Source: Gloeocapsa sp. PCC 7428
Lineage (GTDB): Bacteria > Cyanobacteriota > Cyanobacteriia > Cyanobacteriales > Chroococcidiopsidaceae
Length of the DNA: 64,000 nt
Assembly (NCBI RefSeq): GCF_000317555.1
Contig: NC_019745.1
Span: 4,964,001-5,028,000, forward strand
Reading direction: 5' to 3'
The notes below the pieces were generated by a model, which worked only from the letters and a program-made list of their open reading frames with translations, ran no database searches and was not told the origin of the DNA. Of this stretch, positions 54,820 through 64,000 are shown piece after piece; the stretch's first letter is position 1, and the number at the start of each line of letters is the position of its first letter. A program made the translations under genes and the position numbers.

Positions 54820-56061
54820 TCATGCCTTGAAGACGATCGCCGGATCGACGCGAGTTACTTTTTGGATGGCAAATGCAGCAGAACCAACGCACATCAATAC
54901 AGTGACACCAAGAACAGCGATCGCACTGACAGGTGTAATCAAAATCATAATTCCTTGCGTTGCCATTGTCCAAGCTCCTACGCCGTAGCACAAAATCATA
55001 CTTGGCACATACCCTAAAATCGCCATCCACAAAGATTGTTCGACAATCACACCATAAATTTTCCAGTCAGAAGCACCCATTGCCTTAAGCGTCCCAAATT
55101 CTTTTAAATGGTCTGTGACTGAAGAATAAAGAATTTGTCCGACAACGACAACTCCAACAATCACACCCACAACCGTGCTAAGTCCCAAAATAAATCCGAT
55201 TCCTGTGCGCTGCTGCCAAAACTGTTGATTGTGTCGGATGAGTTCGGCTTGCGTAAAAGCGCGGGTATTGGGTAGTGCGGTTTCTATTCTTTGCTTGAGT
55301 GCTTGTAGATCTTCCCCTGGCTGTGCCTGAATCAAGACATGGGTAATTAAGTCGGAGGCGGCTAAAGGTTTCGGTGTAGCAGTTGTCTCAGGATCGGGCG
55401 GTGTATATACATTAGTACATTGAATATCTGATGAACCTGCTTGTAATTTGCACGATAAAGTTGCACTTTGACCCGAATTCGCATAAGCGTTGGCATTCGC
55501 TAACGAAGTAAATACGAAAGGATTAGAGATAATTGAGCGATTTCCCTGCGTTAAACCCACAACTTGTGCTGGCAAAGTTGCTATCTCCTCGACTTCCCCA
55601 ACATTACTTACATTTAATGTTGTGAGATTTGTGCCATCTACCATCACCGTGTAAGGTTGCGCTAAAGCACTAACGCTTCCTTGAGTGATATTTTTGGGCA
55701 CGAACAATTGCCCACTCGAATCAAAGCCAATAATTCGCACTAAGACAATCTCGCGCAACGAGTTGCGCCAAATTGCACCTCTAAGGAGTAAAGGTTCAGC
55801 GCTGGCGACACCAGCAATTTTTTGCGCGTCATTAACTGTGCTGGCAGGGATTGGTAAAGATAATTCCAGATGTACAATACTCTCAGAAGTTACCCAGATG
55901 TCTGCTTGCGAGTGTTCAATAATTTGTGTTGTCGAGCGCGTAAACCCATTAAAAATCCCTGTTTGAATCGTCACTAAACTCACAGCAAACATGATTCCCG
56001 CTTGGGCTACAAGAAAGCGTGGCAGATCTTCTAGTAGATTTTTGCGAGCAACTGAAACCAT
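54820..56061 (-). CDS. DevC/MacB-type ABC transporter permease
   Basis: A 413-residue permease of the MacB/FtsX type: one N-terminal helix (about 18-38), a large external domain (about 40-285), and three C-terminal helices with the FtsX signature (LKEFGTLKAMGASDWKIYGV). DevC of Anabaena exports heterocyst glycolipids. No DevB or DevA partner is adjacent in the window. The external domain has Cys pairs and suits a lipid-loading role; the substrate is unknown. Confidence 0.88.
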   Translation of the reverse strand: MVSVARKNLLEDLPRFLVAQAGIMFAVSLVTIQTGIFNGFTRSTTQIIEHSQADIWVTSESIVHLELSLPIPASTVNDAQKIAGVASAEPLLLRGAIWRNSLREIVLVRIIGFDSSGQLFVPKNITQGSVSALAQPYTVMVDGTNLTTLNVSNVGEVEEIATLPAQVVGLTQGNRSIISNPFVFTSLANANAYANSGQSATLSCKLQAGSSDIQCTNVYTPPDPETTATPKPLAASDLITHVLIQAQPGEDLQALKQRIETALPNTRAFTQAELIRHNQQFWQQRTGIGFILGLSTVVGVIVGVVVVGQILYSSVTDHLKEFGTLKAMGASDWKIYGVIVEQSLWMAILGYVPSMILCYGVGAWTMATQGIMILITPVSAIAVLGVTVLMCVGSAAFAIQKVTRVDPAIVFKA

Positions 56062-56215: not shown

Positions 56216-57802
56216 TTATTTTGGCGATACAGCATAGGTTTTCTCTGCCATATCTTCCCTTGATTCTTCTTCTAACAACGTAGCTAATTGTGCTTCAATT
56301 TCGTCGCGAACGATTTGCCGATATTGAATAAAGTGTTCAATTAATGCGCAGTTACTCAAATAAGGAACAAAAACGCCAGGATTGTGACGCATTATGCTAA
56401 ACAGTTGTTTCCAAAACTGAAATCGAGTATTACGTTTAAAACCCTGTCGCCAGCAGATAATCAATACAGCGCGCATCTCTATAGGTTCCAACATCCGAAA
56501 CGGTGCTTTATGCGGGGCTGGCTTCATTGCCATAAAGTGACGGTACACTCTTGATAGATAGCGACGCGGTTCATACAGTTCCCAGAAACAACTGACATAC
56601 TCGCGGGCTAACTCTGGTAAAGGGCGCGTAGGTACAAAGTTAGTGAGAGTCATCTGATGACCTTCGGTTTCTTGCTTTGCCTCTAAAAGTCGTCCTTCTT
56701 TGTGTAGTCGTTGCCATAGTGCAGTATTTGGCAAGGCTTGTAATAGCCCAAACATTGCTTTAGGAATTGCGGTTGCTTCGACAAAATTGATAATGCGATC
56801 GCCTGCGCCAGGTTTTTCATCATCAAATCCTAAAATGAAACCTGCCATGACACTTAAGCCGGCAGAGTTAATTTTCTGCACTGACTCGATCAGCGAATTG
56901 CGTGTATTTTGAAACTTGTGGGTTAGCGCCAGACTATCCGTATCCGGCGTTTCTATTCCCAAAAATACCGCTGTAAAGTTCGCCGCAACCATCAACGCCA
57001 ATAATTCATCGTCTTGGGCTAAGTCTACTGATGCTTCAGTTGCGAGGCGAAATGGATACTGATGTTCTGCCATCCAAGGACCAAGTTCGCGTAGCAACAG
57101 CTTGACATTCCGCTTGTTACCAATAAAATTGTCATCGACCATAAAAACCGAACGCCGCCAACCTAGATCGTAAAGTGTCTGTAACTCGGCGATCAGCTGT
57201 GCTGGTGTTTTAGTCCGAGGTTTACGTCCATACAGTACAATAATGTCGCAGAATTCGCACTGAAAAGGACAGCCCCGCGAAAATTGCACAGACATCTCGT
57301 TATATGCGTTGAGATCGAGGAGATCGAACCTTGGAATTGGCGTAATAGTCACATCAGGTTTATCGCCTTTGGCAGTGAAAATTCCTGACGTTTCACCCTG
57401 TTCAAGTGCCGCAACCAGAAGTGGTAGAGTAATTTCGCCTTCGTCTAAAACGAGAAAATCTGCCCCCGCTTCCTGCGCTGCGTCTGGTACAGAAGTCACA
57501 TAAGGACCACCCACCGCTACCAATTTACCCCGTCGCTTTGCCTCGCGAATCAGATGAAGCATATCAGGTTTTTGGACAATCATTCCAGAAATAATCACTA
57601 AATCTGCCCAAGCCCAATCTGCTTCGGTTTCTTCGCGTACATTCCGATCTACGAGGCGAAATTCCCACGTTTGAGGCAAAATAGCTGCTACGGTAATCAT
57701 CCCCAATGGGGGTAGGGAGACCTTACGCCCAATCAATTCTAGTGCGCGATCGAATGACCAGAAAGATTTAGGGAAAAGTGGATATAAAAGTAGTACACGC
57801 AT
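56216..57802 (-). CDS. B12-binding radical SAM protein
   Basis: A 528-residue enzyme from ATG at 57800-57802. N-terminal B12-binding-like domain (about 1-140; MRVLLLYPLFPKSFWSFDRA, GGPYVTSVPD), then the radical SAM core with CxxxCxxC in FSRGCPFQCEFCDII (about 185-192), and a C-terminal DUF4070-like part. Such enzymes often methylate or rearrange unactivated carbon. The frame runs on upstream to 58129 only through a tandem repeat, so the longer start is rejected. It is the last gene of a block of lipid- or metabolite-type enzymes. Confidence 0.9.
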   Translation of the reverse strand: MRVLLLYPLFPKSFWSFDRALELIGRKVSLPPLGMITVAAILPQTWEFRLVDRNVREETEADWAWADLVIISGMIVQKPDMLHLIREAKRRGKLVAVGGPYVTSVPDAAQEAGADFLVLDEGEITLPLLVAALEQGETSGIFTAKGDKPDVTITPIPRFDLLDLNAYNEMSVQFSRGCPFQCEFCDIIVLYGRKPRTKTPAQLIAELQTLYDLGWRRSVFMVDDNFIGNKRNVKLLLRELGPWMAEHQYPFRLATEASVDLAQDDELLALMVAANFTAVFLGIETPDTDSLALTHKFQNTRNSLIESVQKINSAGLSVMAGFILGFDDEKPGAGDRIINFVEATAIPKAMFGLLQALPNTALWQRLHKEGRLLEAKQETEGHQMTLTNFVPTRPLPELAREYVSCFWELYEPRRYLSRVYRHFMAMKPAPHKAPFRMLEPIEMRAVLIICWRQGFKRNTRFQFWKQLFSIMRHNPGVFVPYLSNCALIEHFIQYRQIVRDEIEAQLATLLEEESREDMAEKTYAVSPK

Positions 57803-57821
57803 TCGTTTAGGGGTATGGGGG

Positions 57822-57909
57822 TGCAGGGGTGCAGGGATGCAGGGATGCAGGGGTGCAGGGGTGCAGGGGTGCAGGGGTGCAGGGATGCAGGGGTGCAGGG
57901 ATGCAGGGG
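57822..57909. repeat. Octamer minisatellite, 11 units
   Basis: Eleven perfect 8-base units TGCAGGGG or TGCAGGGA fill 57822-57909 between the radical SAM gene and the amidohydrolase. In the minus strand it would encode repeats of His-Pro-Cys-type residues, none in a real gene. Confidence 0.9.
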
Positions 57910-57927
57910 CAAGGCAATGCCTTGCCC
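57907..57927. repeat. Palindrome next to the minisatellite
   Basis: GGGCAAGGCA at 57907-57916 pairs with TGCCTTGCCC at 57918-57927 around one base, a perfect hairpin. It follows the octamer array directly. Not followed by a T-tract in either direction. Confidence 0.75.
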
Positions 57928-57939
57928 GTACTGCATTTT

Positions 57940-59334
57940 TTAGGGTAGTGCGGTTTGTGTGAGGAGATGATTTGGTAATGATTGGCGCAGGCGATCGCCG
58001 TATAATGCCAAGGCGTTTCCACCTAGCAGTAAGCCTAAGTGTTCGCGATCGTAATCGGCTACTGTCGCCGCATCGTGGACGCAGTTTTGTAAAACGCCAT
58101 CCCAATGACCATAATCGCCGGAGAAGCACGCAAGGTGTTTGCCAGTTTCACCCATCGCAATGTGTAGATATGCAGGACCAGGATCGTCGGATTCAAACGA
58201 AGTGAAAATTTGTCCGCGCTCAAAGTATTCTAAGGGATCGCGGTGGCGTAAATCGTAATGTTCGTACAAACTTACATCTTCAATCTTCGTGGGATCGTGT
58301 TGCTTGTTCCACAATAAATCGAACAGGTTTTTCGCTTGACTAATCAAGTTAACGTTATTGTGCGTTCCGCGTTCTTGAATCATCAACTTGGTAAATTCCA
58401 TCAGTGATGGGCGATAAGGATGTTTCGGATCAAAGTCACGAATGCGCTTTTCCCAATGTTCGTGGAATGCATGGGCTAAATCGGGAACCCAACCGCAACC
58501 ACCTTCTAGAAACCCAACGCGTAGCGTAGGAAATTGCTCGAATGCACCATCAAAGACCATCCGCGCTAATGCTAACTGTTGTTGGTTGCGTTGTACGAAA
58601 ATATGCGTGAGGACAAAAGTTTCAGTATAATCTGAAATGCCGCCTACCATGTAGGAACCAGGTCCGCCGTGAATTCCCAAGCCAATATTTAAATCAACTG
58701 CGGCTTGCAGAATCGGGCGAAAGTCTGGATGGCTAATTGTTTTGCAACTGCGGATTTCGGGGAAAGCTTCGGGTGCTTTGGGGTGCGGAATTGGCATATT
58801 TGGCGCAACCGCGACGCTAATCATCCCTAGTTCATTCACACAACGATGCATCTCTGCAACTGCGGCATCAACATCTTGTAGCGGAATCACGCCAATAGGT
58901 TTCAATCGGTTATCGTAGCCGCGACAGTCATCCGCCATGTAGGTGTTATAGGCACGGCACAGCGCGATCGCCAAGTCTTTATCAATAATGCTCGAAAATA
59001 TTAAATTTAATGTCCCGTAAATGACATGAACGTCAATGCCTTCGCGATCCATGTGTTCGATGCGGATGCGATTGAACATTGCGCCTAAAGTTGTTTCCGG
59101 ATGCAAATTGCGAAAACCGCCTTTACCCATCCCCTGTGGTTGGGGAAACATTCGCATCAAGTCGTTTTTTCCGGTTACAGGGTTAAAGTCAACAATTCTG
59201 GCGCGTTGATCGCCTAAGCTATCAATCACCAAACCAATGCGATCGCGATACTCTGGCTCAATATAATCGCGCATTACCAATGGATTTTCGAGCTTATGAG
59301 CGTCTGCATCAATAACAGGTAAACCTTGATACAT
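57940..59334 (-). CDS. Amidohydrolase family protein (Amidohydro_2)
   Basis: A 464-residue TIM-barrel metal hydrolase/decarboxylase of the ACMSD/Amidohydro_2 class. Early DADAH motif (about 9-13), later IHGGPGSY, and FLEGGCGW / CFSGDYGHWDG towards the end supply metal-ligating His and Asp residues. Typical members decarboxylate or hydrolyse small aromatic or polar acids. It is preceded by the Mpo1-like gene with a 30-base gap. Confidence 0.88.
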   Translation of the reverse strand: MYQGLPVIDADAHKLENPLVMRDYIEPEYRDRIGLVIDSLGDQRARIVDFNPVTGKNDLMRMFPQPQGMGKGGFRNLHPETTLGAMFNRIRIEHMDREGIDVHVIYGTLNLIFSSIIDKDLAIALCRAYNTYMADDCRGYDNRLKPIGVIPLQDVDAAVAEMHRCVNELGMISVAVAPNMPIPHPKAPEAFPEIRSCKTISHPDFRPILQAAVDLNIGLGIHGGPGSYMVGGISDYTETFVLTHIFVQRNQQQLALARMVFDGAFEQFPTLRVGFLEGGCGWVPDLAHAFHEHWEKRIRDFDPKHPYRPSLMEFTKLMIQERGTHNNVNLISQAKNLFDLLWNKQHDPTKIEDVSLYEHYDLRHRDPLEYFERGQIFTSFESDDPGPAYLHIAMGETGKHLACFSGDYGHWDGVLQNCVHDAATVADYDREHLGLLLGGNALALYGDRLRQSLPNHLLTQTALP

Positions 59335-59364
59335 GAATTATCCTTTAAGTCAATAGTTTTTTTA

Positions 59365-59718
59365 CTAATCGCTCAGAGCTTTTTGCTGAAAGTGCTGTAC
59401 AACTTGGCGCACGCCGAACCAATTCTCGAATGACCACTGCATTGAAGCTAAAATTGTTATCCCTGGGTACTTGACAAATGCAGGTTCATTTTTCTCAAAA
59501 AAAGCATGACCGCCCAAAGCAAAAACTTGGGTGAAAACTAAGCAGACGATGGTGAGTCGCCAATCGTAAAACAAAAAGACAACGGCGGCGATCGCGACAA
59601 TATTCGTTAAATGATGGAGAAACTGATTAATCGGGTGCTGGTGGCTTGCAACAAAGTGGGCTTTTGCCTCTTGGAAGTATTTCACAGCGTATGCCCCTAT
59701 CTCGAAGAAAATTGCCAA
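59365..59718 (-). CDS. Mpo1-like (DUF962) membrane protein
   Basis: A 117-residue protein of the yeast Mpo1/YGL010W family, with SHQHPINQFLHHLTN and GHAFFEKNEPA, whose conserved histidines bind iron in the yeast dioxygenase. Yeast Mpo1 performs alpha-oxidation of 2-hydroxy fatty acids in sphingoid-base degradation. Two or three hydrophobic stretches suggest membrane association. It lies between the fatty-acid-hydroxylase-like gene and the amidohydrolase, same strand. Confidence 0.88.
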   Translation of the reverse strand: MAIFFEIGAYAVKYFQEAKAHFVASHQHPINQFLHHLTNIVAIAAVVFLFYDWRLTIVCLVFTQVFALGGHAFFEKNEPAFVKYPGITILASMQWSFENWFGVRQVVQHFQQKALSD

Positions 59719-59813
59719 TGTGTTGTAGGAACAATAGCACTACAAGTCTCTACAGCCTACAAAAATAACAAATTCTTTATTGATCTTGAGAATTGAACGA
59801 ATTAGTTACGCAC

Positions 59814-60314
59814 CTACCACCACCGCAACTGTAAGTAACCGCGTTTTGGTTGCGATAATTCCTCTTCGGTCAGCCATTCTACAGGCTTGTACGTTCCAAA
59901 AACGCGATCCCACCAATCGACAGCTAAACCAAAGTTGTGATGCCACATACCATACTTATGATGGACATAATGAACGGGCATTTTCATCCAAAAGCACTTT
60001 GTGGGGTTTTCGTGCTGTAGTTGATGTGCATAAGCTGAGAATGCAGCATAAATTAATCCTCCTAGAAACCAACCAATTCCGGCTTCTAAAGAAAGGAAAA
60101 ATACAGCAATCATTACAATAAAGCTACCGCGCACATAATCGCGAAATTCCCAGATGACGCCTTGTCCTTCATTGCGACGGTGATGATCGCGGTGACGTTC
60201 GCCAATTTGCTGCGAAACGTGCATCAACCGATGCAACCAGTATTCTACCAAACTTGCTAGGACGAACGCTGCAATAAAACAAACAACTGCGATAGAAATA
60301 GTTAACGCGTTCAT
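59814..60314 (-). CDS. Fatty acid hydroxylase/sterol desaturase family protein (CrtZ-like)
   Basis: A 166-residue diiron membrane oxygenase with histidine boxes HRLMH (about 29-33), HRDHH (about 42-46), HQLQHEN and HYVHHKYGMWHHNFG. This pattern is shared by beta-carotene hydroxylase CrtZ and small fatty-acid hydroxylases. Three hydrophobic segments. Without carotenoid genes nearby and with an Mpo1-like neighbour, a fatty-acid role is plausible, but CrtZ activity cannot be excluded. Confidence 0.85.
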   Translation of the reverse strand: MNALTISIAVVCFIAAFVLASLVEYWLHRLMHVSQQIGERHRDHHRRNEGQGVIWEFRDYVRGSFIVMIAVFFLSLEAGIGWFLGGLIYAAFSAYAHQLQHENPTKCFWMKMPVHYVHHKYGMWHHNFGLAVDWWDRVFGTYKPVEWLTEEELSQPKRGYLQLRWW

Positions 60315-60353
60315 AGGTTTCGATTCCTCACACGAGACGAACTCCAGCGAGCT

Positions 60354-61295
60354 TTATAATCTATGAAGAATTTTACTGAGTTTTTGTTTTCTGTTACTGC
60401 CAGAAAGTGCGATCGCAAGACTCATACCGATATGTGGTAATGCACAAATATGTCCGCAAACTGCACGCCATCGATTCCAAGACTGTACGACTCTTGACGT
60501 CGGATAGACGCGCCAGAATCGATTCACTGAACACACCATATCGTCGCCTAATGCTGTCACTTCATGCCACCACCCCATAGGAATAAAGAGTGTTTCGCCT
60601 TGCTTGAGAATGACTTCATATCTATGTTGCAGCGCCATCTTAAATCGCGGAAAGGATATTAAATCTGGTTGGGCGAGTGATACGCGGCTGAACCAAGAAC
60701 GTAATTTCAAACCGTAGCGTATATGACGATAAACGGGGAACGGATAGAGATTATATGTCTGAGAAGGAGGAAACAACACAACTCTTTTCTCACCATACAT
60801 TTGCATTAGTGTACCGTCCACTGAGTCGTAATGTAAACCTGATGAATGTCCGCCAGGTCCCATATACAAATTGAAATCCGTCGCGGGCTTAGTTAAACCA
60901 AGTTGACTGCCAATAATTTGTAATGCAGGTGTTTGTGCGAGAATAGTATCTTTTATAGAGCATTTACCTAAATAAATGTCGTTTTCGTGCGCAGTGCGAT
61001 CGCGTAACAATTCGGCATACTCGGTAAACTGCATACTTTGCAAAGCGACTCCACTACCAATATTCTTCCAATCGCGTTTATCTTGCTGATATCTAGAATT
61101 ACCGTAATTTCTGAACAAAAATGTTTGATCGCCTAACTTTTCGCAGAGATATTCTAAATTCCAATTTATCGCGGGTAATAAGCCAGCGATCGTAACTGGT
61201 GTACCGGTTTTCTGATACTTTTCAATAAATATATCAGGTGTTATCTCAGCTACATCAATCCTTGCTATAGAATCGGCTATTTTGAGCATTTGCAC
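60354..61295 (-). CDS. JmjC/cupin_8-like dioxygenase
   Basis: A 313-residue cupin-like 2-oxoglutarate/Fe(II) oxygenase. The iron triad is visible: HYDSVDG (HxD) and WWHEVTAL (distal His). Family members hydroxylate proteins or small molecules. It starts at the block's promoter side, divergent from the GH3 gene by 81 bases (from the likely start of that gene), and 39 bases before the fatty-acid-hydroxylase-like gene on the same strand. Confidence 0.85.
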   Translation of the reverse strand: MQMLKIADSIARIDVAEITPDIFIEKYQKTGTPVTIAGLLPAINWNLEYLCEKLGDQTFLFRNYGNSRYQQDKRDWKNIGSGVALQSMQFTEYAELLRDRTAHENDIYLGKCSIKDTILAQTPALQIIGSQLGLTKPATDFNLYMGPGGHSSGLHYDSVDGTLMQMYGEKRVVLFPPSQTYNLYPFPVYRHIRYGLKLRSWFSRVSLAQPDLISFPRFKMALQHRYEVILKQGETLFIPMGWWHEVTALGDDMVCSVNRFWRVYPTSRVVQSWNRWRAVCGHICALPHIGMSLAIALSGSNRKQKLSKILHRL

Positions 61296-61376
61296 TAATC
61301 ATGAATTATTTTATAACTTTATAATGCCAAAACTGTATTTGATCTACAGTTGCTTTTTATTCAAGTGTGCCAGAAT

Positions 61377-63059
61377 ATGTCAAGTTTTGTTCAAAAAGTC
61401 TTACTGTATGCTACTCAACAGCGGAAGAATATTTTTGTCAAAAAAACTCATAACGCTTTAAGTTTGCAGGAACAATTCTTAATTAATCTTTTAGATTTTC
61501 ATAAAAATACAGAGTTAGGAAAAGAGTATTCATTAAATGACATTACTACTATCGAGCAGTTTCAACAACGAATTCCGATTTGGGAATATAGCAGCTATGA
61601 ACCTTATATCCAGCGCATGGCACAAGGTGAAAAAAATATTTTGACACCCGATCCTGTCGTATATTTTAATACGACGAGTGGTTCGACTGGAAAGCAGAAA
61701 TTAATTCCTGTCACGCAATACTTTCAAAGTACATTAAGACGAGCTAATTTCACAAGTATTGGTTTTCTCGATACGGCGCTGCGATCGCGCAATTTGAATT
61801 TTGGCAAATTATTAGTGACTAATACAGCAAAGATTACTGGGCAGACTGCAAGTGGAATTGCATATGGTCCTGGAGGTACAGGAGTAATACGGATGAATAA
61901 AATACTGTATCAACAGCTATTCGCCCATCCATATACACTGCTTGAAGTTTCTGATAGCGTTAGCCGACATTACCTCTGTTTGCTGTTTGCATTAAGAGAT
62001 GAATCGATGCGAGGCATGATTGCTAACTTTCCTATGCTTATTCTACGTACTTGCCAGTATTTAGAACGCTATGCTAAGGATTTAATTCACGATCTCGAGT
62101 TTGGGCAAATTGCTAGTTGGTTAAACTTAGAACCCGAAATACGTAAGACTTTAGAAAAGCAATTTTTTGCTGTCCCAAGCCGTGCGGCTCAACTTAAATC
62201 TATATTGAGAAATAATGGTAAACTCACACCAAAACTTGCTTGGTCTAACTTATCTTTTATTGCAACCGCACGTGGAGGAACATCTAATTTTTATTTTCAT
62301 AGGTTTCCTGATTACTTAGAGGATACTCCAATATTTGGTGCAGTTTATGCTTCAGCTGAAGGGACATTTAGTATTTATTCTGACCTCAATACAGATGGAA
62401 GTATTTTGGCGATTGAAAGTGGCTTTTTTGAATTTATCCCTCAAGACCAGTGGGAAGAAGCACATCCTAAAACTTTGCTAGCTACAGAAGTCAAAGTAGG
62501 TCAACTTTACCGCATACTCATGACAAACTATAGTGGTTTATACCGTTATGATAATGGCGACGTTATAGAAGTTGTCGGTTTTTACAATAAAACTCCTTTA
62601 ATTACCTTTCGGTATCGTCGTGGAGGTCTACTATCTTCTACTACCGAGAAAACAACCGAGTCTCACGCAACGCACGTTATGCAAGCTTTACAACAAGAGT
62701 TTGGTTTAGCCTTAGAGGATTTTTGCATTACTTTAACAGATAATGATTTTCCGGCGCATTATTTAGTCAATATTGAACTAATCGGCGATCGCCCGCTGAG
62801 TAACCCGCAAACATTTTTAGCCGGATTTGACCAAAAACTGAAAGAAATTAATGTCTACTATGGTGCGAAACGTCGAGATCAAGTACCACCACCGCGATTG
62901 CGTATTTTAGCACCTGGAAGTTTCGCGATAATTCGTCAGCGTCAATTACAAAAAGGAATTCCCGATTCGCAATTAAAATTTCCTCATATTAGCGAAGACC
63001 GCAATTTTCTTTCGGGACTCACCATAGAACAAGAATTTAGACTACCAGAAGATGTCTAG
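61377..63059 (+). CDS. GH3 auxin-responsive-promoter family protein
   Basis: A 560-residue acyl-adenylating enzyme of the GH3 fold, from ATG at 61377 (MSSFVQKVLL); the TTG at 61350 is less likely. ATP-binding TTSGSTGKQKLIPVT, YASAEGTFSIYSDLN and NYSGLYRYDNGDVIEVVG are the three adenylation motifs. Plant GH3 enzymes couple hormones to amino acids. Bacterial homologues are of largely unknown role. Here it is divergent from an oxygenase block, suggesting acyl amidation. Confidence 0.9.
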   Translation: MSSFVQKVLLYATQQRKNIFVKKTHNALSLQEQFLINLLDFHKNTELGKEYSLNDITTIEQFQQRIPIWEYSSYEPYIQRMAQGEKNILTPDPVVYFNTTSGSTGKQKLIPVTQYFQSTLRRANFTSIGFLDTALRSRNLNFGKLLVTNTAKITGQTASGIAYGPGGTGVIRMNKILYQQLFAHPYTLLEVSDSVSRHYLCLLFALRDESMRGMIANFPMLILRTCQYLERYAKDLIHDLEFGQIASWLNLEPEIRKTLEKQFFAVPSRAAQLKSILRNNGKLTPKLAWSNLSFIATARGGTSNFYFHRFPDYLEDTPIFGAVYASAEGTFSIYSDLNTDGSILAIESGFFEFIPQDQWEEAHPKTLLATEVKVGQLYRILMTNYSGLYRYDNGDVIEVVGFYNKTPLITFRYRRGGLLSSTTEKTTESHATHVMQALQQEFGLALEDFCITLTDNDFPAHYLVNIELIGDRPLSNPQTFLAGFDQKLKEINVYYGAKRRDQVPPPRLRILAPGSFAIIRQRQLQKGIPDSQLKFPHISEDRNFLSGLTIEQEFRLPEDV

Positions 63060-63068
63060 TAGTAACAA

Positions 63069-64000
63069 TCAGTTTGTGGTGATTCGGCGATCGCTACCAA
63101 ATAAAATCAGCGAAATTGCGATCGCGGCGGATAAACTTGCAGCAGTGTAAAATACAGATGGTAATCCACTGCGGTTCAACACAGGACTCAGCAGAATAGG
63201 CGAACAAAATTGTCCTAAAAATCCGGCACCTGCGCCTAATGCTAAGATACTCGAACGCAGGTTTGCAGGTGCGATATCTGCTAAGGCACTATAAAGACTA
63301 GGTAGGACAATTCCAAATCCTGCCCCAAATAGTCCCGCCATGAATAAAATCAAGAAGAGTTGGTCGAGTAGCGGCAGCGTAGCTAAGGTGACAGCCATGA
63401 GTGCAAAACCTACGGCGCTAGCCTGTGCTGTACCTAAAGATTGTACCAAGCGTTTAGCGACAAATGCAGATACAATTGCGGCTCCAATAGCTCGTGTTGC
63501 CAGAATAATACCGTTAAGCGCTGCACCAGCATTGATAGTTGCTCTAAAGTAAAGTGGTGCGTAGATCACAACAGTATACATCACAATTGATGCCCCACCG
63601 AGAGTCATCAGTAACCCGACAACGCGGCGATCGCCTAAAATGTGACCAAGTTTGTTGCTAGCTATTTGATTGACTTTCGTTGGTTGCGTCTGTTGGCGTA
63701 ACATGACAACGGCAACGACTGCTAAGGGAATTCCGAGACTGTATAGCCCAAAAGTCAAGCGCCAGTTAATATTACCTAGCCAGCCTCCAAGTAGCGGAAA
63801 CAGAATTCCAGTAATTGTTAAGGTACTTGTTGCGTAAGCTAGCGCCTGCGATCGCTGTTGACCTTCGTACATATTACCAAGCAAACCAAGACTAGCGGCG
63901 GCAATTCCTCCACTTGCAACACCGAGTAAAGCTCGACTCACTAATAACGGTAAGATACTTTGTATGACTGCGCCTACTGTACCAAAGAATGCGTATAGCA
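63069..64000 (-). CDS. MFS transporter, C-terminal part
   Basis: At least 310 residues of a major-facilitator protein, open to the right window edge, so the N-terminal helices and start are missing. About nine membrane helices are seen; the loop after the first visible ones has GGWLGNINWRLTFG (the WR between helices 4 and 5) as in drug/H+ antiporters. It converges on the GH3 gene with 9 bases between stops. Substrate unknown. Confidence 0.9.
   Translation of the reverse strand, partial: LYAFFGTVGAVIQSILPLLVSRALLGVASGGIAAASLGLLGNMYEGQQRSQALAYATSTLTITGILFPLLGGWLGNINWRLTFGLYSLGIPLAVVAVVMLRQQTQPTKVNQIASNKLGHILGDRRVVGLLMTLGGASIVMYTVVIYAPLYFRATINAGAALNGIILATRAIGAAIVSAFVAKRLVQSLGTAQASAVGFALMAVTLATLPLLDQLFLILFMAGLFGAGFGIVLPSLYSALADIAPANLRSSILALGAGAGFLGQFCSPILLSPVLNRSGLPSVFYTAASLSAAIAISLILFGSDRRITTN

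Follow-up and report, generated by a model that had tools for sequence, protein, structure and literature searches.

Bacteria are known to assemble the ceramide backbone with three enzymes, Spt, bCerS and CerR, as set out in two reports (PMC11087976, PMC11334938). Two cyanobacteria are also reported to contain ceramides: Scytonema julianum has an acetylsphingomyelin and Moorea producens a cerebroside. The same 2022 source adds that the genes behind cyanobacterial sphingolipids were still unreported and that none of the phylum's sphingolipid enzymes had been characterised (PMC8895605). Could cyanobacteria nevertheless encode a counterpart of the Spt-bCerS-CerR pathway? Here we describe a block of six genes at positions 56216-63059 of a 64,000-nucleotide stretch of the genome of Gloeocapsa sp. 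PCC 7428 (NC_019745.1, positions 4,964,001 to 5,028,000 of the forward strand; the whole stretch is called the window hereafter). Probably the block makes up the left half of a cyanobacterial locus for a ceramide-type lipid; the locus would also provide oxygenases for tailoring and an exporter.

Like the Spt-bCerS-CerR clusters of Caulobacter and Sphingomonas, this locus groups an alpha-oxoamine synthase (AONS), a full-length GNAT homologue and an NAD-dependent epimerase-family reductase. Unlike those clusters, its AONS forms a separate clade that stays under the cut-offs for serine palmitoyltransferase (SPT), and the cyanobacterial set adds a fatty acid hydroxylase (FAH), a Rieske oxygenase, a cupin8 or OlsC-like oxygenase, GH3, Mpo1, an amidohydrolase and a DevA/DevC-like exporter. 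The part of the set that lies in the window is as follows.

60354-61295, minus strand: Cupin_8/JmjC_2 protein (JmjC-like oxygenase, here cupin8), above the Pfam cut-off
59814-60314, minus strand: FA_hydroxylase (FAH, a diiron fatty acid hydroxylase with Scs7-like fold), above the Pfam cut-off
59365-59718, minus strand: Mpo1-like protein (2-hydroxy-fatty-acid dioxygenase family), Pfam PF06127 at 50.3 bits, cut-off 24
57940-59334, minus strand: Amidohydro_2 metal enzyme, above the Pfam cut-off
56216-57802, minus strand: B12-binding/Radical_SAM/DUF4070 protein, above the Pfam cut-off
61350-63059, plus strand: GH3 acyl-adenylating enzyme with N, middle and C domains (Pfam GH3/GH3_M/GH3_C)
54820-56061, minus strand: FtsX/MacB_PCD permease, DevC-like (Pfam), flanking the block
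63069-64000, minus strand: MFS transporter (Pfam MFS_1), a gene of 418 aa that continues beyond the window end

From high to low coordinate the minus-strand genes run Cupin_8, FA_hydroxylase, Mpo1-like, Amidohydro_2 and B12/radical SAM/DUF4070, with GH3 divergent. All six block genes score above the Pfam cut-offs of the families to which the original prediction had assigned them, and the MFS transporter it placed at the flank bears out as well.

The remainder of the locus came to light in gene maps of 40 neighbourhoods plus the window, where Rieske, AONS, GNAT and epimerase genes recur beside GH3 or FAH. The genome of the window itself carries a Rieske-AONS-GNAT-epimerase run that lies between 12 and 17 kb past the end of the window (C1:5040120-5044808), with its AONS gene 13 kb out. 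This AONS is 95% identical to that of Gloeocapsopsis crepidinum (L106), and the window genome is near Gloeocapsopsis. A DevA-like ATPase gene follows 1.6 kb after the run (L076:374-1111); its product is 73% identical to the ATPase adjoining the DevC-like gene in locus L061 and is likely the partner of the window's DevC-like permease. Both halves are found in one 12-16 kb run in Aliterella atlantica CENA595 (L108) and in four metagenome-assembled genomes (L109, L111, L116, L148), with amidohydrolase, Mpo1, FAH, GH3, MFS, Rieske, AONS, GNAT, epimerase, DevA-like and DevC-like genes, and these runs end in the DevA/DevC-like exporter. Among the five, radical SAM and cupin8 genes are present only in L109, whose cupin8 is in two pieces, and L148 carries two extra open reading frames (ORFs) between FAH and GH3, one of them MCP-type. 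The stretch examined from an uncultured Scytonema metagenome-assembled genome (L130) holds MFS-Rieske-AONS. As side observations, an acetate-CoA ligase gene follows the DevC-like gene in L108 and has relatives in L111 and L116; L116 is labelled Tatlockia and is probably a mis-binned cyanobacterial contig.

How closely do the two halves keep company? We queried 291 genomes of the class with five block proteins and AONS each, dropping weak matches (6 FAH and 9 distant GH3) before counting. Strong matches were found for AONS in 101 genomes, FAH in 95, GH3 in 73, amidohydrolase in 39, Mpo1 in 37 and cupin8 in 35. FAH accompanies AONS in 93 genomes; a further 8 have AONS but no FAH, and 2 have FAH but no AONS, these two being fragmented drafts. 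Mpo1 (37/37) and amidohydrolase (39/39) are confined to AONS genomes, all 35 cupin8 genomes have both AONS and GH3, and 70 of the 73 strong GH3 matches are in AONS-positive genomes. Within single families, the FAH-AONS tables (both/AONS only/FAH only/neither) read 6/1/0/26, 6/1/0/19 and 30/0/0/3; the agreement fails in the six-genome family f30 (2/3/1/0). A panel of 80 genomes, made of 60 of the 101 AONS-positive genomes and 20 AONS-negative ones, was searched for further members. GNAT gave strong matches in 60/60 positive and 1/20 negative genomes, with weak or fragment matches in three more of the negatives; Rieske (at least 420 bits) was found in 49/60 and 2/20, and a DevC-like homologue (at least 400 bits) in 57/60 and 2/20. 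The permease, which the original prediction had regarded as a mere flank, thus tracks the set. That prediction's idea of a joint lipid role for the block is supported by the co-occurrence with AONS across the 291 genomes. Its free fatty-acyl pathway fares less well: because the block genes track the AONS-GNAT-epimerase run, which resembles Spt-bCerS-CerR and lies outside the window at a distance of 13 kb, a sphingolipid-type pathway is favoured instead. A 74% complete draft, G263 (L034 = G263:C319, L079 = G263:C360), has an AONS match with 11 stops and FAH in pieces, unlike its Mpo1 and amidohydrolase, which are free of stops; the pathway may be decaying there.

Adjacency exceeds chance and is strongest for Mpo1 and amidohydrolase: of the 37 genomes having both, 36 carry the two genes on the same strand and no more than 2 kb apart. 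Mpo1 and FAH are within 2 kb in 28/37 genomes, GH3 and FAH within 2 kb in 12/66, and GH3 and AONS within 10 kb in 23/70. We mapped the best 80 of 151 AONS relatives, many of whose stretches are cut by contig ends. These 80 loci hold Rieske in 67 cases, MFS in 38 (matches of at least 38%), GNAT in 36, epimerase in 27, FAH in 26, GH3 in 22, amidohydrolase and DevA-like ATPase in 17 each, DevC-like and Mpo1 in 16 each, OlsC-like in 11, cupin8 in 10 and radical SAM in 5; the DevA-like figure retains 17 of 18 loci with an ABC ATPase, that of L171 not being DevA-like. Even the sister genus (G037) has lost the order in which the six genes stand in the window: there, three contigs carry FAH-Mpo1-amidohydrolase-radical SAM-DevC-like, GH3-cupin8-MFS and AONS. 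So of the conservation the original prediction looked for, co-occurrence and repeated adjacency extend well beyond this strain and the exact order does not. The lost order is what one would expect of unrelated genes that are neighbours by chance, an explanation contradicted by the co-occurrence and by the repeated adjacency in distant families; we regard it as extremely improbable.

Between AONS and GNAT in L159, L162, L164, L165, L167 and L168, unmatched, NACHT/AAA-type and NfeD-like genes recur. After a scan of the L162 proteins, we did not take these NACHT/AAA-type, NfeD-like and Pfam-less genes as parts of the pathway. In Hormoscilla (L181, with relatives in L182 and L185), aspartate decarboxylase-like and gamma-butyrobetaine-dioxygenase-like genes follow Rieske-AONS-GNAT-epimerase. 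AONS and Rieske enzymes are found in saxitoxin biosynthesis too.

There are two accessory modules, GH3-cupin8 and Mpo1-amidohydrolase, whose presence varies largely separately: of the 37 Mpo1 genomes, 17 have GH3. Does the neighbourhood then merely house two or three independent lipid modules, with GH3 and a cupin8 or OlsC-like oxygenase making N-acyl amino acid lipids similar to ornithine lipids, FAH-Mpo1-amidohydrolase performing alpha-oxidation of free fatty acids, and AONS-GNAT-epimerase making ceramide? The separate variation fits this proposal, as do the split over contigs in G037, the distant GH3 genes (28-30% identity) of 9 genomes without AONS, and the LpxO/OlsC-family gene of relatives, which reaches 269 of 450 bits with OlsC. 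There is also a precedent in a report on planctomycetes, whose GH3-like enzyme OlsH makes N-acyl ornithine (PMC12493201). Independent modules do not predict, however, that strong matches to GH3 (3/73), Mpo1 (0/37), amidohydrolase (0/39) and cupin8 (0/35) should be nearly absent outside AONS genomes, and we consider them unlikely.

We return to the ceramide-type reading and to its three core proteins. The AONS has 426 aa and keeps, in alignment, the catalytic Lys (TFSK), His (LNH) and Asp (DEAH). The TFSK motif is found in 8/8 reference rows of the SPT clade, and the BioF, KBL and HemA rows have TLSK or TLGK; the AONS of Acidisoma, outside the SPT clade, has TLSK. This shared motif is suggestive only, a hint toward SPT that leaves serine a candidate substrate. 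The GNAT is matched over 95-100% of its length by GNATs near AONS genes in Sphingomonas, Streptomyces, Rubrobacter, Aureispira and Acidisoma. Its match to the Sphingomonas protein, a GNAT that accompanies the SPT there and that from its context we take to be bCerS, has 28% identity over 403 columns (E 2e-48). Against eight reference GNATs the E values range from 3e-64 to 2e-44, and 19 residues are invariant in 14 sequences; not all of the eight have an AONS in the stretch examined, Diaphorobacter for instance having none. The annotated order in Streptomyces is AONS-GNAT-epimerase, as in cyanobacteria, and the epimerases of the two match with E 6e-25. Rubrobacter has AONS-GNAT-NAD(P) oxidoreductase; Aureispira has oxidoreductase, AONS, GNAT; and Acidisoma has FA_hydroxylase, AONS, SDR, GNAT, its hydroxylase being 24% identical to FAH (E 5e-5). 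The Sphingomonas cluster comprises an NAD(P)H-binding protein, an acyl carrier protein (ACP), AONS, LptFG and GNAT, and its AONS passes the curated SPT model NF047603 with 833 of 670 bits. When plasmid records were searched with the GNAT by tblastn, 44 matched, 43 of them at a coverage of 80% or more. Proteins annotated YghO in Pseudomonas veronii (30.7%) and on an E. coli plasmid (27.7%) are related to the cyanobacterial GNAT over the full length, and the P. veronii gene (L088) lies near AONS and an aspartyl beta-hydroxylase; the ygh genes may be part of a ceramide-type locus.

Several points weigh against the ceramide-type reading. The AONS misses all three curated SPT models (164, 162 and 114 bits against 640, 500 and 670) and scores higher with bioF (231 bits, cut-off 426). 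In a tree built after two long rows were left out, it is a separate long branch, and joining it to SPT (p 0.445), KBL (0.277), HemA (0.269) or BioF (0.123) is in no case rejected. The second alpha-oxoamine synthase (AOS) named for Moorea has 571 aa (PMC8895605), unlike the AONS described here with its 426 aa. The epimerase matches the Sphingomonas NAD(P)H-binding protein only in part (E 2e-13 over 191 residues), within a large superfamily. Rieske is absent from 11 of the 60 AONS-positive panel genomes, and the Foldseek E values linking FAH to yeast Scs7p are weak (0.28-0.41). The published description of mooreaside A, the Moorea cerebroside, gives an acyl chain that is not 2-hydroxylated (PMC6272925). 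As to the counts, the Fisher values for co-occurrence are very small and ignore phylogeny, the control for which consists of the four within-family tables; many assemblies are drafts, which lowers adjacency counts, and some AONS-positive calls are partial or broken gene copies. The gene maps were drawn without short ORFs and so do not bear on an ACP gene.

These same properties of the AONS, its own deep clade and the failed SPT models, would also suit an enzyme that takes alanine, glycine, cysteate or a larger amino acid, the product then being no true sphingolipid but a related lipid built on an amino-ketone or amino-alcohol, for instance a sulfonolipid or 1-deoxy lipid. In the PDB, the relatives of the L050 AONS include a cysteate C-fatty acyltransferase (E 3e-31), and a threonine-synthase-like gene adjoins GH3 in L036 and L044. 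By score, however, this neighbour is a threonine synthase (173 and 175 bits, thrC cut-off 167), reaches 133 and 101 bits with cysteate synthase, short of the cut-off of 325, and is present in 2 of the 40 mapped loci. We have accordingly set aside a cysteate or sulfonolipid route by way of this gene. A substrate other than serine is fairly plausible, though we lean against it.

What would the window genes contribute to a ceramide-type lipid? In FAH the His boxes of the superfamily are invariant in 18 sequences. Searched with Foldseek against the PDB, its AlphaFold model (mean pLDDT 76.6) has a sole credible match, yeast Scs7p (probability 0.97-0.99, TM about 0.6, 23-25% identity), and Scs7 also comes first, weakly, in a profile search (E 0.14). 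Like the yeast ceramide fatty acid hydroxylase, FAH is thus a diiron enzyme with the typical His boxes and has Scs7 as its best fold match; unlike Scs7, it has only 166 aa and lacks the cytochrome b5 domain, at about 24% identity. Few superfamily members may have been solved, so this match leaves the predicted substrate of FAH unfixed. A CrtZ-like carotenoid hydroxylase was set aside as a reading of FAH, which tracks AONS and has its sole credible fold match in Scs7.

One report describes yeast Mpo1 as a dioxygenase that depends on Fe(II) (PMC9624242). The cyanobacterial protein, like yeast Mpo1, belongs to PF06127 and has conserved histidines (H26, H35, H36 and H71, invariant in 16 sequences); unlike it, the bacterial protein is fixed beside an amidohydrolase, and its dioxygenase activity is a prediction. 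A search of Mpo1 against the PDB gave no convincing match (best E 0.074). A 2019 paper cited in that report on the yeast enzyme has alpha-oxidation of a 2-hydroxy fatty acid in its title. Because yeast Mpo1 is such a dioxygenase, the simplest reading is that FAH would make 2-hydroxy acids and Mpo1 would shorten them. Mpo1 is missing from 58 of the 95 FAH genomes, so there the FAH product needs another use. In the amidohydrolase, D11, H13, H222 and D407 are invariant in 16 sequences. As a single sequence it finds DitZ, PtmU3 and decarboxylases in the PDB (best E 5e-20), its profile finds no PDB chain at a strict limit of E 1e-20, and its model is poor (mean pLDDT 57.9). By homology it could be a hydrolase, a thioesterase or a decarboxylase; fixed to Mpo1, it may free an acid from an amide or thioester.

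The GH3 translation carries the motifs TTSGSTGKQK, YASAE and GLYRYDNGD, and its best PDB match is JAR1 (E 1.3e-39). It belongs to the same family as plant GH3 and OlsH, the planctomycete lyso-ornithine lipid synthetase, and carries the three nucleotide motifs that the OlsH report gives for both (PMC12493201); it differs in falling far under the curated OlsH model (96.3 of 620 bits). It should be an acyl-amide ligase, for whichever amine, and accessory to the pathway; the cupin8 oxygenase is accessory to GH3. Pairs of GH3 genes, adjoining or close, were seen in L038, L049, L122 and L158, which suggests duplicated amide ligases. The B12 radical SAM gene is recurrent but optional, with 85-97% identical copies adjoining other members of the set in L033, L034, L037 and L041, and its product is possibly a lipid C-methyltransferase. 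DevBCA is the exporter of heterocysts. Compared for DevA and DevC, the present locus resembles it in having a DevC-like permease and a DevA-like ATPase beside lipid genes. It differs in that both stay under the model cut-offs (TIGR01185, DevC, 156.9 of 290.35 bits; TIGR02982, DevA, 260 of 295.8), so that the permease, of the FtsX/MacB family, is called DevC-like, as first proposed.

From gene set, synteny, co-occurrence, homology and the conserved metal- and active-site residues, which are observed, we infer which reactions take place, with which amino acid, in what order and to what product, as follows. AONS would condense an acyl thioester with an amino acid, by analogy most likely serine, to a 3-keto long-chain base. 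The bCerS-like GNAT would N-acylate this base, and the CerR-like epimerase-family reductase would reduce the ketone. The Scs7-like diiron enzyme FAH, and in most genomes tested the Rieske oxygenase too, would hydroxylate the chains, and the DevA/DevC-like ABC exporter would carry the lipid toward the outer membrane. Where present, Mpo1 would alpha-oxidise 2-hydroxy acids, released for it by the amidohydrolase, to odd-chain acids, either for turnover or for use as building blocks. A variant with an amide link would come from GH3 together with a cupin_8 or OlsC-like oxygenase, and the B12 radical SAM protein would possibly methylate.

Some gene models in the window need correction. The original prediction named the radical SAM family correctly; its listed ORF of 637 aa, starting at 58129, is over-long, and the homologous part begins at ATG 57802. 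The first 109 codons overrun the 3' end of the amidohydrolase gene and a tandem repeat between the two genes:

57818-57909, no strand: tandem repeat with an 8-bp unit, GGGGTGCA, 11.5 copies (TRF)

Mpo1 and GH3 are listed with TTG starts, both of them doubtful. For Mpo1, GTG 59685 agrees with relatives in alignment; for GH3, ATG 61377 is merely the next in-frame ATG. Promoter-like sites (14, against a mean of 17.8, sd 3.7) and terminator-like sites (11, against 8.6, sd 2.3) are near the level of shuffled sequence.

Does the locus fit the known chemistry? The 2022 paper on cyanobacterial ceramides reports for N. punctiforme neither long-chain bases nor ceramides, and one AOS, a BioF; in both ceramide producers more than one AOS seems to be present (PMC8895605). 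In mooreaside A the base is C17 and the acyl chain C25, odd lengths in both cases, its description giving two differing molecular masses (PMC6272925). Alpha-oxidation could explain these odd chains. A bolder and rather doubtful extension holds that cyanobacteria own a deeply separate sphingolipid pathway with a yeast-like pair of Scs7-type hydroxylase and Mpo1, and that in the genomes with Mpo1 this pair makes odd-chain acids which AONS can reuse for C17-type bases. If true, this separate pathway would fit the C17 base and C25 acyl chain of mooreaside A, and a second AONS type would explain why some cyanobacteria have ceramides and N. punctiforme does not. Among the best-ranked titles and abstracts of a literature search, none describes the locus; most subscription journals were outside its coverage, so that novelty is not proven. 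GH3 is best known from plants and Mpo1 from yeast, and here the two are placed in one bacterial lipid context. With its AONS in 101 of the 291 sampled genomes, the locus is a concrete candidate gene set for cyanobacterial ceramides. It offers specific genes to knock out, a version in one piece for expression, and a forecast of producer and non-producer strains.

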